In this document: positions 47,187 to 53,891 of the stretch, one piece after another | Position numbering within the stretch: the first letter of the stretch is position 1 | How the letters are laid out: each line of letters starts with the position of its first letter | DNA from: Streptomyces sp. NBC_00490 | Lineage (GTDB): Bacteria > Actinomycetota > Actinomycetes > Streptomycetales > Streptomycetaceae | NCBI RefSeq assembly: GCF_036013645.1 | Contig: NZ_CP107869.1 | Span: 6,386,001-6,450,000 of the forward strand | Direction of reading: 5' to 3' | Length of the DNA: 64,000 nucleotides | Position numbers and translations under genes: made by a program | The notes under the pieces: generated by a model | Databases searched by the model: none | The model's input: only the letters and a program-made list of their open reading frames with translations | What the model was told of the DNA's origin: nothing

Positions 47187-47380
47187 GCCGCCGGAACACC
47201 GGACTCCCAGCTCAGGAGCTTCTTCATCACTCGTTCGAGTAAGTCCATTGAGGGACGCGATACATCGCGTTATGGTGTGTCTCGTGGCTGGATCGCCGCC
47301 ACTGTGCCGCCACCCATCAGGCGGAGCAAAACGTACAATCCTAGGCTTTTCGAAGAATCCCCGACGACGTGGAGACTCAT

Positions 47381-48409
47381 ATGCCAGGCGCCATCTATGC
47401 CGAAGGCCTGGTGAAGACCTTCGGTGACGTAAGGGCTCTGGACGGCGTCGACCTCGACGTGCCGGAAGGCACCGTCCTGGGCCTGCTCGGGCCGAACGGC
47501 GCGGGCAAGACGACGACCGTCCGCTGTCTGACGACCCTGCTGCGACCCGACAGCGGCAAGGCGGTCGTCGCGGGCCTCGACGTGCTCAAGCATCCCAACG
47601 AGGTGCGGCGCTCGATCGGTCTGTCCGGCCAGTTCGCCGCCGTCGACGAGTATCTGACCGGCCGCGAGAACCTCCAGATGGTCGGCCAGCTCTACCAGAT
47701 GAAGGCCAAGGACGCGAAGGTCCGGGCCGGTGAACTGCTCGACCAGTTCCACCTCGCGGACGCCGCCGACCGCCCCGCGAAGACCTACTCCGGAGGCATG
47801 CGCCGCCGCCTCGACCTCGCGGCCGCCCTGGTCGTCTCCCCGCCCGTGATGTTCATGGACGAACCGACGACCGGCCTCGACCCGCGCAACCGCCAGCAGC
47901 TGTGGGAGGTCATCAAGCAGCTCGTCTCCGGCGGTACGACCCTGCTGCTGACCACGCAGTACCTCGAGGAAGCCGACCACCTCGCGCACGACATCGCGGT
48001 CGTCGACCAGGGCCGCGTCATCGCCCGCGGCACCTCCGACCAGCTCAAGGCCCGCACCGGCGGCGAGCGCGTCGAGGTCGTGGTGCACGAGCGCGAGCAC
48101 ATCCCGACCGCCCGGGACGTGCTCGCCGGCTTCGGCAAGGGCGAGACCACCGTCGAGGACCACACCCGCAAGCTCACCGTGCCCGTCACCGGCGGCGCGA
48201 AGCTCCTCGCCGAGGTCATCCGCGAACTCGACGTGCGCGGCATCGAGATAGACGACATCGGCCTGCGCCGCCCCACCCTCGACGATGTCTTCCTCTCCCT
48301 GACCGGCCACCACGCGGAGGCCGAGACCGAGGAGAACGGTGCCGCCACTGCGAGCGGTGCCGCCAAGGATGCCAAGGACCGGGGCCACAAGAAGGAGGCC
48401 GGCCAGTGA
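47381..48409 (+). CDS. DrrA-type ABC transporter ATP-binding protein
   Basis: A 342-aa ATPase of the DrrA drug-export group. Walker A GPNGAGKTTTVRCL, the signature YSGGMRRRLDLAAAL, Walker B VMFMDEPTTGLDPRNR and the switch LLLTTQYLEEADHLA are intact. The C-terminal ~90 residues hold the DrrA-type extension (LRRPTLDDVFLSLTGHHAE), then a charged tail. GGAGACTCAT precedes ATG 47381. It is cotranscribed with the permease at 48456, now a chimera. Substrate unknown. Confidence 0.92.
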   Translation: MPGAIYAEGLVKTFGDVRALDGVDLDVPEGTVLGLLGPNGAGKTTTVRCLTTLLRPDSGKAVVAGLDVLKHPNEVRRSIGLSGQFAAVDEYLTGRENLQMVGQLYQMKAKDAKVRAGELLDQFHLADAADRPAKTYSGGMRRRLDLAAALVVSPPVMFMDEPTTGLDPRNRQQLWEVIKQLVSGGTTLLLTTQYLEEADHLAHDIAVVDQGRVIARGTSDQLKARTGGERVEVVVHEREHIPTARDVLAGFGKGETTVEDHTRKLTVPVTGGAKLLAEVIRELDVRGIEIDDIGLRRPTLDDVFLSLTGHHAEAETEENGAATASGAAKDAKDRGHKKEAGQ

Positions 48410-48459
48410 GCGCCGTCACCGACCTGCACGTGAGCGCCCGGAAGGAGCAGGTCGCATGA
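48406..48459 (+). CDS. 17-codon linking reading frame
   Basis: A GTG at 48406 overlaps the ATPase stop (GTGA) and opens MSAVTDLHVSARKEQVA, whose TGA overlaps the permease ATG (ATGA). It holds the permease ribosome site. It may act only to couple translation of the two genes, or be a former permease N-terminus in another frame. Confidence 0.3.
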   Translation: MSAVTDLHVSARKEQVA

Positions 48460-49262
48460 GTGCCACGACTGACGCCCTGGTCATCGCCCGCAGGAACTTG
48501 ATTCGCATGACCAGGATTCCCGAAATGATCCTGTTTGGCGTCATTCAGCCCGTGATGTTCGTGGTCCTCTTCACGTACGTCTTCGGTGGCTCGATGAGCG
48601 TCGGAGGGTCTACCGATCCGGACGTCTACACCAACTTCCTGATGGCCGGGATCTTCGCCCAGACGGTGACGTTCGCGACCGCGGGATCGGCGGCCGGCAT
48701 CGCGGACGACATGCAGAAGGGGCTCGTCGATCGCTTCCGCTCCCTGCCGATGGCTCGCGGTGCGGTACTCACTGGCCGGACCGTCGCCGATCTCGCGCAG
48801 ACGTGCATCACGTTGCTTGTCCTGGCGATCGTGGCGCTGCTCGTGGGCTGGCGTACCGGCTCGGCGGAGCCGACCAATGCGGGTCGGGTGCTGGCGGCCT
48901 TTGGCCTTCTGCTTCTTCTCGGCTATGCCTTCACGTGGATCGGTGCTCTGATCGGGCTCTCGGTCAGCACTCCGGAGGCGGCCACCTCGGGCGGGATCAT
49001 CTGGCTGTTCCCGGTGACGTTCATCTCGAACGCCTTCGTCGACTCCTCGCAGATGACGCCCTGGCTTCGGCACATCGCCGACTGGAACCCGTTCAGCGCC
49101 ACGGTCCAGGCCTCCCGCGTGCTCTTCGGCAACCCGGGGGTCTCGACCTCCGACGCCTGGCCCATGCAGCACCCGGTGTGGGCGTCGCTGATCTGGTCCG
49201 TGCTGATCGTCGCGATCTTCCGGACTCTGGCAGTACAGAAGTACCGCTCGGCGGACGGCTGA
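48456..49262 (+). CDS. DrrB-type ABC-2 permease, chimeric gene
   Basis: A 268-aa ABC-2 permease with six helices. It has the head MSATTDALVIARRNLIRMTR, the family loop GLVDRFRSLPMARGAVLTGRT and the end LFRTLAVQKYRS-like FRTLAVQKYRSADG. GGAAGGAG precedes ATG 48456. Only codons 1-60 are native: from TTCCTGATGGCCGG (48636-48649) onward the gene comes from the integrated element. A second, native 3' part is stranded at 52528-53142. The full frame and all helices are kept, so the exporter should still work. Third-position GC is visibly lower in the imported part. Confidence 0.9.
   Translation: MSATTDALVIARRNLIRMTRIPEMILFGVIQPVMFVVLFTYVFGGSMSVGGSTDPDVYTNFLMAGIFAQTVTFATAGSAAGIADDMQKGLVDRFRSLPMARGAVLTGRTVADLAQTCITLLVLAIVALLVGWRTGSAEPTNAGRVLAAFGLLLLLGYAFTWIGALIGLSVSTPEAATSGGIIWLFPVTFISNAFVDSSQMTPWLRHIADWNPFSATVQASRVLFGNPGVSTSDAWPMQHPVWASLIWSVLIVAIFRTLAVQKYRSADG
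48636..48649 (+). other. Left attachment core (attL)
   Basis: TTCCTGATGGCCGG, in frame as codons 61-65 of the permease gene. The sequence to the left is native, that to the right imported. Confidence 0.75.
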
Positions 49263-49276
49263 CGACCTCCCAGAAC

Positions 49277-49301
49277 GGCCCCCATCCAACGGATGGGGGC
49301 C
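49277..49301 (+). terminator. Hairpin terminator after the chimeric permease
   Basis: GGCCCCCATCC pairs with GGATGGGGGCC over a 3-nt loop, 15 nt after the stop. It belongs to the imported segment. Confidence 0.8.
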
Positions 49302-49841
49302 TGCTTCATGTTCGAGCTGACTCAGGCGGACTGCCAGTAAGTGAAGCCGAGTGACGTAAGGCCCCCGGACGGGCATAGACGATCCGAGGCGCCTTCGACC
49401 TCGGTTTGCAGGAGCTGGTAGGCAGCCCCGGTGGCTGGCCTCCAGTGCATGGCGCGAGCCGCAGCACAAGTCCCAGCCCTTGGCCGCGCATCCGTGCGCG
49501 GCGTACGAACTACTGCGAGGAGGCAGCCCTGTCGGCTTGCCTCTGCGCCACGCACGCCTATTCCTGGCGGGGGTACGCAGACGCCCCCGACCGCGAATCG
49601 ACCTGGGGCGCCCGCCTCTTGAGTCACAAGATTCACACAGTGCGGCGCCGGTTGTGCGGCGCCGCACTGTCACACTTCGACGCCGGTGAGCTCGACCAGC
49701 ACCTGATGACACGTTTGGCGGTGCCTGCCTGGTAGCTGGCCTGAATGGCGAGGGATCGGGTCTGTTCCAGGGGCCTGTCCTGCGGCGGCGCCTCTACGGG
49801 GAGAAAGGCGTCGTTCTGGTCGATCCCACTGGTCACTGAGA

Positions 49842-50130
49842 ATGATCGCCTCCTTCGCCCCCTCAGCGAGCTGGCCCAGCAAGGCCCGGGTCTGGAGGCC
49901 GGCGAGTTCGGCAGCGTAGTACGGGCGGGAACAGGCGAGGCCATCGTCCGGGTTCCGCCAGAAGTACATCAGGGTCTCGTCGTCGTAGTGCTCGCCCTTG
50001 TTGTTGGGTTTCTCGGGCGAGATGTTCTGCTCCGTCCGGCGCCGAATCGTGCTCTTGTGGGGCCGAGAAGGTTGCTGATCGCGCCGTACTTCCAGTCGAG
50101 GCCGAACCGAATGACGACTGCCCCGTTCAT
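49842..50130 (-). pseudogene. Possible frameshifted gene remnant
   Basis: From ATG 50130 the minus strand reads MNGAVVIRFGLDWKYGAISN and LLGPTRARFGAG. A shift of frame then continues NISPEKPNNKGEHYDDETLM, YFWRNPDDGLACSRPYYAAE and LAGLQTRALLGQLAEGAKEA. The composition is protein-like on both sides of the shift. I do not recognise the family, and the call rests on sequence texture alone. Confidence 0.25.
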
Positions 50131-50470
50131 TCAGGTGGAGCTCGATATTTCGGCTCCGATCACACCTTGGGTGCTGTTCTGCTCGCCGCTGGAATTGCGG
50201 CACACCTTGCCGTAAATCTCGAATTCGTGCGCGAAGCGATGAACGGACAGAGGCGGGGTGAATAGGCTGCCGTATGAAGAAGCAACCGCATCCTGGCGAA
50301 TTGGTTTCTCGATGGTGCACTGTTGAGTGTAGTGATCGCGAAGAATAGCGGCTGGCTGATCTCCTATTTGGCCGCCTGCTCCAGTATGCATAAGAACAGG
50401 GGCAGTTGCTGCGGACAGCCCGCCAAGTGGCACGTAAAGCGGCTATCCTGACGAGACATCACCACATGGA

Positions 50471-50540
50471 GGTCCCAGGGGGTTGCCGCCCCCTGGGACC
50501 AGGCCAGTCAAGGACTGGCCTGCCAGTCACGGAGGGACTG
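50471..50540 (+). promoter_or_regulatory. Structured leader of the recombinase gene
   Basis: Stem 1: GGTCCCAGGGGG/CCCCCTGGGACC (50471-50500). Stem 2: AGGCCAGTC/GACTGGCCT (50501-50521). Stem 3: CAGTC/GACTG (50524-50539), with the ribosome site GGAGGG in its loop. CCAGTC/GACTGG repeats allow alternative pairings, so translation of the recombinase could be controlled. Confidence 0.5.
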
Positions 50541-50542
50541 AC

Positions 50543-52534
50543 ATGGGGAAGAGTACCGTCATGCGTGGGCATCGGACCGCTCGCGGCGTGATGCGGGTAG
50601 CCATCTATCTTCGCGTATCGACTGCGAAACAGGTTGAAGGATACGGTCTCGATACGCAGGAAAAGCAATGCAAGAAATGGCTCGACTGCAAGGTCGGCCC
50701 TGGTAAGTACGAGATCCACAAGACTTACGTCGATGGTGGGGAGTCAGGGAAGAAGGACTCCAGGCCCGATCTCGACGATATGACAGAGGCCATCGAAAAG
50801 GGCTTCATCGATCTCGTTGTGTTTGGCAAGTTGGATCGCATCGGACGAACTATGGAGGACATCCACCTCTGGGTGTTCAACGCCACCAAGCATCACAAGA
50901 TCAGGGTCGCTACGGCAGATGGTCGCCTGGACAGTGACGACGAACTGTTTGGCGCCATGGTCAGCCTGCTGTCGTACATGGCGGAGCTGGAACACACCCT
51001 CATCCTTGAGCGAACCATGGGTGGCCGTGATCAGAAGGTGGCTGCCGGCGGCTGGCCTCTTGGTCAACCCCCATACGGCGTGAGTCTCAACGGCAAGGGC
51101 AGCAAAGCGATTCCCGTCCTTTGCGAGGACGAAGTGCGTGTGATCAGCATCGCCGCGAATCTGATCGTGGACCTTGGCTACTCGCGCGACGAGGCTGCCG
51201 AGCACCTGAACACCCTTGGTATCCGGACCCGTAAGGGCCTGCCGTGGACCGGCACAAATCTGGCTAGGCGTCTCAACTCCACTGCGCTTGACGGGTACGT
51301 GGAGTTCCGTATTGAGCGCGCGGCTGAGGACGACGACGAGGAGACCTTCGAGATCTTCCGGATCGAGGTTCCCCGTCCGATCAGCGATCCGAAGCGAGTG
51401 GAAGCTCTCCGCGCGGCCCTCAACCGGCGCTCGTTCAAGAAGAGGAACCTCACTCACTACCTGTTCACCGGTCGACTGCACGCGGTGTGCGGCGGCTACT
51501 ACACGGGAGCGAAGCCTGTCGACTCTCCCATTGGTTACTACCGGTGCATGGGCAAGCGGCTAGGGCTGAAGTGTGGGTGTGCGGAGCTCCCGGCACCCGA
51601 CGTTGACAAGGCCATCTGGGCTGAGGTTGAGACCCTGCTGTCGGCCGTGAACAAGTTCAGGGCACTTGCCGCCAAGTGGTTGGGAGCGATCCCGGCGCGC
51701 GCCGAGACGTATCGGCGGCGTCTCGCTGAGCTGGACGCACAGATCGAGAAGAAGAGGGCCAGCCGCAAGGGCCGGCTCCTCGCCAAGCTCACTCAGCTCT
51801 TCGAAGACGAGATGGGCGACTCCGCGGGTGACAGCATCGATGAGGACACCATTCGGGAGGTGAAACAGGCCCTTCGAGCCAATGAAAACGAACTCGTCGA
51901 AGAGCGTGACCGTATGGCTCGCTGGCTAAGGGAGGCCGAAGAGCAGCAGCAGCGTGCGGACGAGATCGTTGCCCTAGTGGAGGAACGGGCAACCGAAATG
52001 GGTTCCTTCACGGCTGCGCAGCGTCGAGACCTGCTTGACCTGCTGGACGTTCGCGTACACGTGACCGGCAAGGGGCAGTCGCACCGGAAGGGAGTCGTCG
52101 AACCCCTCACAGAGTGGCACAGGGCGACGGGCACGCTGGTGCCTCTCAAGATCAGCGATGCGGAGTGGGAGACGGTTGGTGCCGTGCTTCCAGACTCTCG
52201 CCAGAACTGGACGCCCAAGCGGGAGATGTTCGAAGCGATCTTGTGGAAGCTGCGGACTGCTGCGCGGTGGAGCGATGTGGTGGTGTCCGGGAACTCCTGG
52301 AGCGCTGTCAGACGGCGCGCCGAAGTCTGGCGCACCACGGGCGCCTGGGCGTCGGCCATGGAAGCTCTGAAGGACGCGGACGGGGTTCTCGTGCCACCGC
52401 TCATGGTCCTGCCGCCCATGGAAGTCTGGGGCAGTATCGATCCGAGGTTCGCGGCACTGGGCCTGGAGACCTGCGAGGGTGATGGGGAGGCCTGCAACCA
52501 GAACCACGCCCACTCGTCTACCGCGAGTTCCTGA
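50543..52534 (+). CDS. Large serine recombinase with C-terminal DUF4096-like domain
   Basis: A 663-aa site-specific integrase. The resolvase domain starts at VMRVAIYLRVSTAKQ with catalytic Ser26, followed by the Arg-rich active region (LDRIGRTMEDI). The recombinase domain spans ~190-300 (GYSRDEAAEHLNTLGIRTRKG), then a zinc ribbon with Cys in HAVCGGYY, YRCMG and KCGCAE, and a coiled coil to ~530. The last part (ISDAEWETVGAVLP, EAILWKLRTAARWSDV, RAEVWRTTGAWASAMEAL) looks like the DUF4096 domain of IS5-type transposases, an odd fusion. GGAGGG supports ATG 50543. The stop TGA lies inside the attR core. Confidence 0.92.
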   Translation: MGKSTVMRGHRTARGVMRVAIYLRVSTAKQVEGYGLDTQEKQCKKWLDCKVGPGKYEIHKTYVDGGESGKKDSRPDLDDMTEAIEKGFIDLVVFGKLDRIGRTMEDIHLWVFNATKHHKIRVATADGRLDSDDELFGAMVSLLSYMAELEHTLILERTMGGRDQKVAAGGWPLGQPPYGVSLNGKGSKAIPVLCEDEVRVISIAANLIVDLGYSRDEAAEHLNTLGIRTRKGLPWTGTNLARRLNSTALDGYVEFRIERAAEDDDEETFEIFRIEVPRPISDPKRVEALRAALNRRSFKKRNLTHYLFTGRLHAVCGGYYTGAKPVDSPIGYYRCMGKRLGLKCGCAELPAPDVDKAIWAEVETLLSAVNKFRALAAKWLGAIPARAETYRRRLAELDAQIEKKRASRKGRLLAKLTQLFEDEMGDSAGDSIDEDTIREVKQALRANENELVEERDRMARWLREAEEQQQRADEIVALVEERATEMGSFTAAQRRDLLDLLDVRVHVTGKGQSHRKGVVEPLTEWHRATGTLVPLKISDAEWETVGAVLPDSRQNWTPKREMFEAILWKLRTAARWSDVVVSGNSWSAVRRRAEVWRTTGAWASAMEALKDADGVLVPPLMVLPPMEVWGSIDPRFAALGLETCEGDGEACNQNHAHSSTASS

Positions 52535-52541
52535 TGGCCGG
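52528..52541 (+). other. Right attachment core (attR)
   Basis: TTCCTGATGGCCGG again. It contains the recombinase stop codon and opens the stranded native permease end. Confidence 0.75.
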
Positions 52542-53142
52542 CATCTTCGCCCAGACCGTCACCTTCGCCACCGCGGGCGCGGGCGCCGGGATCGCCGACG
52601 ACATGCACAAGGGGCTCATCGACCGCTTCCGCTCGCTGCCCATGGCGCGTGGCGCGGTGCTGACCGGGCGGACCCTCGCCGACCTGGTGCAGACGGCGCT
52701 CACGCTGTTCGTGCTGGCGATGGTCGCCCTGCTGGTCGGCTGGCGCACCCACACCAGCGTCGGCGAGGTGCTCGGCGCCTTCGGTCTGCTGCTTCTGCTC
52801 GGGTACGCCTTCACCTGGGTCGGCGCGCTGATCGGACTCTCCGTGCGGACCCCGGAGGCGGCCACCTCGGGCGGGCTGATCTGGCTCTTCCCGGTCACCT
52901 TCGTCTCGAACGCGTTCGTGGACTCCAGCCAGATGACGCCCTGGCTGCGCCATGTCGCCGACTGGAACCCGTTCAGCGCCACGGTCCAGGCCTCCCGCGT
53001 GCTCTTCGGCAACCCAGGGGTCTCCACCTCCGACGCCTGGCCCATGCAGCACCCGGTGTGGGCGTCGCTGATCTGGTCCGTCCTGATCGTCGTCCTGTTC
53101 AGGACGCTGGCGGTGCGGAAGTACCGGTCCGCGACCGCGTGA
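52528..53142 (+). pseudogene. Stranded native 3' part of the ABC-2 permease gene
   Basis: 205 codons read FLMAGIFAQTVTFATAGAGA through IDRFRSLPMARGAVLTGRTL to VRKYRSATA. This equals residues 61-268 of the permease and is in frame with codons 1-60 at 48456-48635. It lost its start and promoter through insertion of the recombinase element. An ATG at 52534 exists, without a ribosome site of its own. High third-position GC and its place beside greA mark it as the original host sequence. Confidence 0.88.
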
Positions 53143-53222: not shown

Positions 53223-53723
53223 TCAGGCGCTGTAGGGCTCGGCCTTGAGAATCTTCACGGAGGCCTTTCTGCCGTTCGGCAGTTCGTACTCCGCGTCCTC
53301 GCCGACCTTGTGGCCGAGCACGCCGGAGCCCAGCGGGGACTGCGGCGAGTAGGTCTCGATGTCGGAGCTGGCGTATTCGCGGGAGGCGAGCAGGAAAGTC
53401 GTCGTGTCGTCCTCGTCACCGTCGAAGGCGATCGTCACGACCATGCCGGGCGCCACCGCGCCGTCAGCGGACGCCGGAGCCTCGCCGACCTTGGCCTTCT
53501 CCAGGAGCTGGGTCAGCTGGCGGATGCGGAGCTCCTGCTTGCCCTGCTCTTCCTTGGCCGCGTGGTACCCGCCGTTCTCGCGCAGGTCGCCCTCCTCGCG
53601 CGCTGCCGCGATCTTCGCGGTGACTTCCTCGCGCGCGGGACCAGACAGGTACGCCAGCTCTTCCTTGAGCTTGGTGTACGCCTCCTGCGTAAGCCAGGTG
53701 ACGTCTTCGCTGGTCTGGGTCAC
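53223..53723 (-). CDS. greA: Transcription elongation factor GreA
   Basis: A 166-aa Gre factor that rescues backtracked RNA polymerase by stimulating transcript cleavage. The N-terminal coiled coil carries the acidic tip AREEGDLRENGGYHAAKEEQG (Asp/Glu that reach the active site). The C-terminal FKBP-like domain starts near residue 85 and includes SPQSPLGSGVLGHKVGE. The GTG at 53723 has AGGAG 5 nt upstream. Confidence 0.95.
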   Translation of the reverse strand: MTQTSEDVTWLTQEAYTKLKEELAYLSGPAREEVTAKIAAAREEGDLRENGGYHAAKEEQGKQELRIRQLTQLLEKAKVGEAPASADGAVAPGMVVTIAFDGDEDDTTTFLLASREYASSDIETYSPQSPLGSGVLGHKVGEDAEYELPNGRKASVKILKAEPYSA

Positions 53724-53891
53724 AGGTGCTCCTCGTAGGTACTGGGAATACAAAGCATCGCCCTACCCAGAAGAATGTTCCTTCACGGATGGGCGAAACC
53801 ACGAGCCTAACAATTCAGCGGCCCAAGGGGGAGGACATAAGCCGTCAGAATCACATCGAAGCAGGTCAGCAAGTACGTAATGCGGACCAGG

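Follow-up and report, generated by a model that had tools for sequence, protein, structure and literature searches.

A serine recombinase element in a Streptomyces ABC-2 permease gene that appears to restore 92% of its target

In a 64,000-nucleotide stretch of the 10.8-Mb genome of Streptomyces sp. NBC_00490 (contig NZ_CP107869.1, positions 6,386,001 to 6,450,000; 'the window' below), the permease gene of an ABC-2 exporter stands open in front of a gene for a large serine recombinase (LSR), and a second copy of the permease 3′ part lies behind it. The order is ABC ATPase, ABC-2 permease, 1.3 kb without a long gene, LSR, second permease part and, on the opposite strand, greA (Table 1); the host locus, ATPase–permease–greA–mca, is conserved. 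How can a gene be entered by an LSR element and still be read from start to stop? We consider, with a probability of roughly 0.82, that the element (approximately 48519–52513, or 4.0 kb) is what is left of a temperate element (most probably an R4-like Streptomyces prophage) that integrated at codon 22 of the permease gene and restored the gene with a tail of its own. As far as sequence can establish it, this answer is carried by a split gene, an in-frame chimera, a displaced native part with an LSR in between, nine like loci, empty sites, one complete prophage and recombination between the two copies. A preliminary description of the window had already proposed that a serine recombinase element of 3.9 kb splits the permease and restores its 3′ three-quarters; the permease, the recombinase and the second permease part on which it relied were all recovered from open reading frames (ORFs) and Pfam matches, the last as ORF 52534–53142. 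Insertion and restoration are upheld by the empty sites and the nine other loci, one of which holds a complete prophage; the size needs little change, but the bounds are shifted and the restored share is 92%.

Amongst the evidence for insertion is the state of the locus in relatives, a comparison that the preliminary description had recommended. The survey covered 92 genomes, 12 picked from 60 relatives and 80 taken down a list ranked by ATPase similarity; the element carriers G000 and G146 were excluded, G001 was skipped, and a duplicate in G182 was known beforehand (G and L numbers are our working labels). In 89 of the 92, greA lies within the examined stretch, and the distance from the permease end to greA is 67–237 bp in 78 of these and 690–5419 bp in 11. 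Thus, the uninterrupted permease is the usual state, whereas in the window the gene is in frame after the insertion and the displaced native part lies beyond the element. Eight of the 11 expanded gaps (L085, L204, L209, L219, L220, L225, L232 and L234; 0.8–5.4 kb) hold neither a permease remnant nor an LSR, and were left out of the count of possible scars given below. The ORFs in the L204, L209 and L225 gaps have Pfam matches to hydrolase, MIP channel, methyltransferase and molybdopterin-enzyme domains, along with a weak NACHT match below the cut-off and two ORFs without a match. With other DNA in eight of the 89 genomes, the permease–greA gap seems to be open to insertions besides LSR elements.

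The same recombinase together with the permease 3′ part, which the preliminary description had suggested looking for, was found at nine other loci. A search for the LSR in 392 genomes of the genus gave 44 with a match; 49 matches were listed, 30 were obtained as loci, and five of the 30 sit in this permease (the window, G297, G057, G146 and G326). A scan of contigs from GTDB species gave six loci, all at the permease–greA place and one of them G146 again, and the ten distinct loci are completed by S. colonosanans, S. jeddahensis, NRRL S-646, A1277 and AC1-42W. A second draw of 343 genomes under a stricter limit added no locus, all of its matches being already in the first. The left, chimeric permease is free of internal stops in all ten (the start codon lies upstream of the tested stretch in G297, S. 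jeddahensis and A1277), and the LSR is likewise open across the tested stretch in all ten, being matched from residue 125 onward in G297, from residue 191 onward in G326 and in two pieces in A1277 and AC1-42W. One of these loci is G057, in which the same permease holds a complete R4-like prophage of approximately 53 kb. Amongst the 25 most matched of its 121 PHROG families (46 ORFs) are terminase, portal, head, tail, tape measure, helicase, primase, ribonucleotide reductase and integrase, and an 8-kb stretch, in one piece, is 79% identical to the R4-like phages BroPlease and phiHau3. The attL and attR of this intact prophage imply that the replacement sequence would be present in the mobile form, but no free form with the tail was found.

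The position of the crossover can be read from the right-hand junctions. In six of the ten loci (G297, G057, G146, G326, S. colonosanans and S-646), permease codon 22 comes directly after the LSR end, and viral contig L105, the LSR of which is 73% identical to that of the window, terminates at the same string as those junctions. Since the native part resumes at codon 22 in these six relatives, the crossover is placed there and not at codon 60; approximately 21 codons would be native and approximately 247 of the 268 imported (741 bp, 92% of the gene), in place of the 60 and 208 given before. In Tefunt and Haizum, two R4-like phages (Arquatrovirinae), the string TTCCC lies approximately 13 codons short of the integrase gene end. 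We infer that the att core is the dinucleotide CC in codon 22, the register compatible with attL, with attR and with an empty gene that stays in frame.

The right side of the window departs from this pattern. Its element sequence tracks the relatives as far as CCCAC, 11 bp short of the core, and from there passes abruptly to codon 57, so that approximately 115 bp are missing, the attR core included. A native 3′ part does lie beyond the recombinase, as had been described, but it begins with codon 57 at 52516 and not at 52528. Because the attR core is gone, and with it one of the two att sites, excision by the integrase is not expected. The right permease part begins near codon 225 in S. jeddahensis. 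At the LSR end of A1277 and AC1-42W lies a short inverted piece of the permease (L103 11712–11819, L104 11548–11679), a rearranged right junction.

Two short sequences near the junctions should be mentioned. The 14-mer TTCCTGATGGCCGG, present at 48636–48649 and 52528–52541, had been taken as the direct repeat that bounds the element. It is the coding sequence of codons 61–65, found in full in 11 of 16 aligned left or empty-site genes and in its first 11 bases in all 16; as coding sequence common to both kinds of gene, it is ruled out as an attachment site. A second pattern, ATTCGnATGnnnnGGATTCC at codons 16–22, is common to the eight left genes displayed, from which it was itself derived. Of the 78 empty genes, 4 carry it, as do 3 of the other 14 genes in the survey. 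The pattern may reflect a preference for certain attB sequences; alternatively, the imported tract of these genes may begin further upstream.

The events can then be proposed as follows. A serine integrase would have recombined attP with attB at codon 22 of the conserved ABC-2 exporter permease gene. In its mobile form, the element would have had codons 22–268 in its attP, and integration would thus have swapped 92% of the gene beneath the native start and promoter. Later, the element would have decayed to approximately 4 kb, losing its attR core.

By its domains, the window LSR is a large serine recombinase integrase, for which recombination activity is predicted: Resolvase (1.4e-29), Recombinase (4.6e-6) and Zn_ribbon_recom (2.8e-6) match above the cut-off in a single 663-residue frame without a stop. 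DUF4096 (2.8e-12), by its Pfam name the N-terminal part of an IS4/5-type transposase, is fused in the C-terminal part of the protein at residues 537–604; the fusion recurs in the LSR of S. colonosanans, and the G057 equivalent has a match to a PHROG transposase family. The LSR frame crosses the att core (L105 11970–11986; L067 6715–6780; L151 4894–6960), so the integrase must have other last residues and another stop codon when the element is integrated than when it is free. In a quick tree, in which four rows were partial, one group contains the LSRs of the window, G297, S. colonosanans, S. jeddahensis and L105, and a second those of G057, AC1-42W, A1277, G326, G146 and S-646, with the free phage Tefunt nested amongst them (75–77% identical to G146, S-646 and G326). 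The window LSR is 47% identical over its full length to those of Tefunt and Haizum, which places it with the phage-clade integrases. The window genome has two more LSRs, at C1:7534481-7536415 (40% identical) and C1:4595655-4597463 (34%); no permease was found in the 14 kb examined around the former.

If the tails are imported, the question arises where they come from. A tree of codons 22–268 was built with 56 rows, after two short right fragments and three near-duplicate natives had been dropped. The left copies nest among natives of several lineages; that of the window is near G215, G136, G195 and the left copy of AC1-42W, and its right copy is near G027 and the right copy of S-646. Descent of all ten left tails as one clade was rejected (p 5e-54). 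The dN/dS of the left copies against their nearest native is 0.085–0.264 (10 rows) and the median for natives is 0.134 (30 pairs), so that the left gene looks constrained.

There is also evidence that the two copies in the window recombine. Their alignment gives two direct-repeat families, one of 235 nt (81%) and one of 300 nt (88%), and within one tract they differ at only 2 of 127 positions, compared with 104 of 497 elsewhere. A tract this strong appeared in none of 200 column shuffles and none of 246 native pairs. Inside it, the left copy is at a distance of 0.138 from the kin of the right copy and 0.139 from its own; before it, the distances are 0.228 and 0.153, which hints at transfer from right to left. 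None of the other six left/right pairs has a comparably long tract, although single low windows occur in G326 and G057. Because of the conversion tract, the window copies look closer than they are.

This last point matters for the view that the permease was duplicated in tandem and that a recombinase element invaded between the copies afterwards. Several observations weigh against restoration from an imported tail. Sisterhood of left and right copies is not formally rejected in the window (p 0.065), G297 (0.185) or G057 (0.65), and dN/dS of the in-frame right copies (0.081–0.246, five rows; the frameshifted or short copies of G297, G326, S. jeddahensis and G182 were excluded) gives no sign of relaxed selection, being no different. 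The preliminary description had itself named a duplicate permease part without a recombinase as the observation that would favour duplication, and a second partial permease without an LSR does occur in three of the 92 genomes (G182, G277 and G380). These parts can be read as scars of lost elements (ATTCGnATGnnnnGGATTCC is absent from G277 and G380, and present in G182), and 78 of the 89 sites are empty. Against duplication, sisterhood is rejected in four of seven loci, G146 (4e-5), G326 (0.001), S. colonosanans (0.004) and S-646 (0.049), the right copy begins at the identical codon at the LSR end in six loci, and the closeness of the window copies is inflated by the conversion tract; we regard this account as very improbable. 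Much the same can be said of a crossover at codon 57 or 61, by which the window element would differ from its relatives. Codon 57 is where the window right copy starts again, and the short string CGTCTAC stands at both window junctions, but LSRs 80–83% identical to that of the window (G297, S. colonosanans) join at codon 22, and the element side follows them almost to the core before it jumps. The GC content at third codon positions also speaks for import upstream of codon 57, being 0.79 in left codons 22–54 and 0.88–0.97 in neighbours, although this concerns 33 codons only and codons 1–21 have 0.81.

It is less clear what kind of element the remnant was. Under the same att logic, it could derive from an actinomycete integrative and conjugative element (AICE) and not from a phage, and further points that weigh against a prophage belong here. 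Two of the ten elements are AICE-like rather than phage-like: that of S. colonosanans (14.3 kb) has RepSA and an FtsK/SpoIIIE protein, and that of S-646 (9.5 kb) has RepSA only. The closest LSRs to that of the window are those of S. jeddahensis (84%) and S. colonosanans (83%), and the 400 bp upstream of the window LSR are 75% identical to the S. colonosanans element. Moreover, these searches turned up the permease tail in no free phage and in no viral record: it is absent from the examined stretches of six phage genomes, Tefunt included; no Streptomyces phage record has the permease; the phage records with one are just four from Listeria, at 30–32%; the 156 plasmid records are every one below 60% identity; and none was found in IMG/VR. 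In favour of a phage, the stretch 49666–50004 resembles R4-like phage sequence (blastn 71% over 343 bp to viral contig L112, and 72–80% over 85–113 bp to L106, L107 and L115) and is oriented as expected, and L105 carries an LSR of the same group as that of the window. The R4-like structural module, present in G057, is missing from the 1.3 kb of the window, which is thus at most a remnant of such a prophage. Nor does the 1.3 kb show RepSA or a transfer gene, and no Rep or FtsK-type gene was found amongst the window ORFs scanned (seven proteins, none from 49263–50542, where the largest ORFs are short). A prophage origin is favoured, not strongly, and an AICE-like origin is rather unlikely. The S. 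colonosanans element (L255 5921–16912) also encodes an APH-family phosphotransferase, an HNH endonuclease and a Schlafen/AlbA-type protein.

Tefunt has an LSR of the same clade without a tail and AICE-like elements occupy the same site; the site therefore seems to be shared by phages and AICE-like elements, and the permease tail seems to be optional. A wider and tentative proposal, which we hold somewhat less probable than its negation, is that one module of integrase, attP and tail, used by phages and AICE-like elements, swaps 92% of a core ABC exporter permease at each integration, and that homologous recombination between the copies, for which the window tract is evidence at the sequence level, exchanges alleles or removes the element. 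With repeated swaps of this kind, the permease at empty sites would be a mosaic of past passengers, and both export specificity and susceptibility to the next integration may change. In 76 empty-site genomes, permease distances track those of the flanks poorly (Spearman 0.21–0.27, compared with 0.26–0.51 for other pairs), which would fit repeated replacement but is suggestive only. In pairs such as L179/L185 and L172/L202, the flanks are 2.5–3.5% apart and the permease 14–19%, as if the gene alone had been exchanged. Amongst ten hand-picked, non-independent pairs of empty-site genomes with close flanks, the divergent block starts, relative to codon 22, at +10, +43, +43 and +70 bp in four, at +211 and +220 in two and at −140 to −182 in four. 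N-terminal gaps blur these breakpoints and L172/L202 differ upstream of codon 22 too, so they are not used as evidence.

Table 1. Coordinates of the features of the permease locus in the window.
Feature	Position	Strand	Basis
ABC ATPase, upstream partner of the permease, DrrA-type C-terminal domain	47369–48409	+	Pfam ABC_tran 1.1e-29, DrrA1-3_C 4.9e-8; order kept in relatives
Permease ORF, left chimera	48456–49262	+	Pfam ABC2_membrane 1.7e-26, spanning the entire ORF
Native permease 5′ end, codons 1–21, left of the inferred crossover	48456–48518	+	Right copies of six relatives resume at codon 22
Imported permease part, codons 22–268 and stop, in frame with the native start	48519–49262	+	ABC2_membrane; nests among lineages other than that of the right copy
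Putative attL crossover dinucleotide CC, codon 22	48519–48520	+	Register fitting attL, attR and the Tefunt/Haizum integrase end
Conversion tract, left copy (partner 52955–53081)	49075–49201	+	2/127 differences, 104/497 outside
Fragment resembling an R4-like phage gene (Tefunt gp48 region)	49666–50004	−	blastn; Tefunt annotation
LSR, 663 aa, open frame	50543–52534	+	Pfam Resolvase, Recombinase, Zn_ribbon_recom, DUF4096
Right junction; element ends ..CCCAC (52513), permease from codon 57 (52516), attR core missing	52510–52516	unassigned	Aligned to right junctions of L067, L099 and L105
Displaced native permease 3′ part, codons 57–268 (ORF 52534–53142)	52516–53142	+	Nearest rows: G027 native gene, NRRL S-646 right copy
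Conversion tract, right copy (partner 49075–49201)	52955–53081	+	2/127 differences, 104/497 outside
greA, right neighbour of the permease at empty sites	53223–53753	−	Pfam GreA_GreB_N 1.7e-25; gap 67–237 bp in 78/89 genomes

If restoration by an imported tail is correct, target-gene restoration extends from short gene ends to nearly a whole membrane protein, and integration becomes a means for phages and conjugative elements to trade alleles of a core transporter. The tail is a diverged allele and not a near-identical block, so island finders that rely on blocks of identity could misplace such sites. With tail-bearing elements and a tailless phage in one integrase clade, the manner and cause of tail gain can be put to the test.

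Elements that supply part of the coding sequence of their target are known. The SXT-type integrative and conjugative elements do so in prfC, as here, but they replace the 5′ end and use a tyrosine integrase. Amongst R4-like phages, Tefunt and Haizum share the TTC-CC near the integrase end, and differ in having no permease tail after attP. PMC10111431 presents it as usual that a replacement carried in attP restores a split target gene, and gives blocks of identity of up to approximately 250 bp. The likeness is that an element-borne replacement keeps the recombinant target gene functional; the difference is that here the replacement is approximately 741 bp, 92% of the gene, and a diverged allele, and the preliminary description was right to call the tail unusually long. 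The phage phiJoe (PMC5311408, in part) is also R4-related, with a serine integrase and an attB inside an ORF. That attB lies 74 bp from the ORF end, so there is little to replace, unlike in the window element. Of 144 AICEs, 19 use a serine recombinase and some are integrated in protein genes (PMC3218068), and the S. colonosanans and S-646 elements similarly combine RepSA with a serine recombinase; large target-gene replacement is not mentioned in the portion of that paper considered here, and its Frankia example disrupts its gene. No report of an element such as that in the window was found in the literature searched, the reach of that search being limited. As far as we searched, then, the novelty lies in the 741-bp length, in the divergence of the allele, in a use common to phages and AICE-like elements, and in the recombination of the two copies; target-gene restoration itself is known, and the divergent 741-bp tail is an extreme variant of it.

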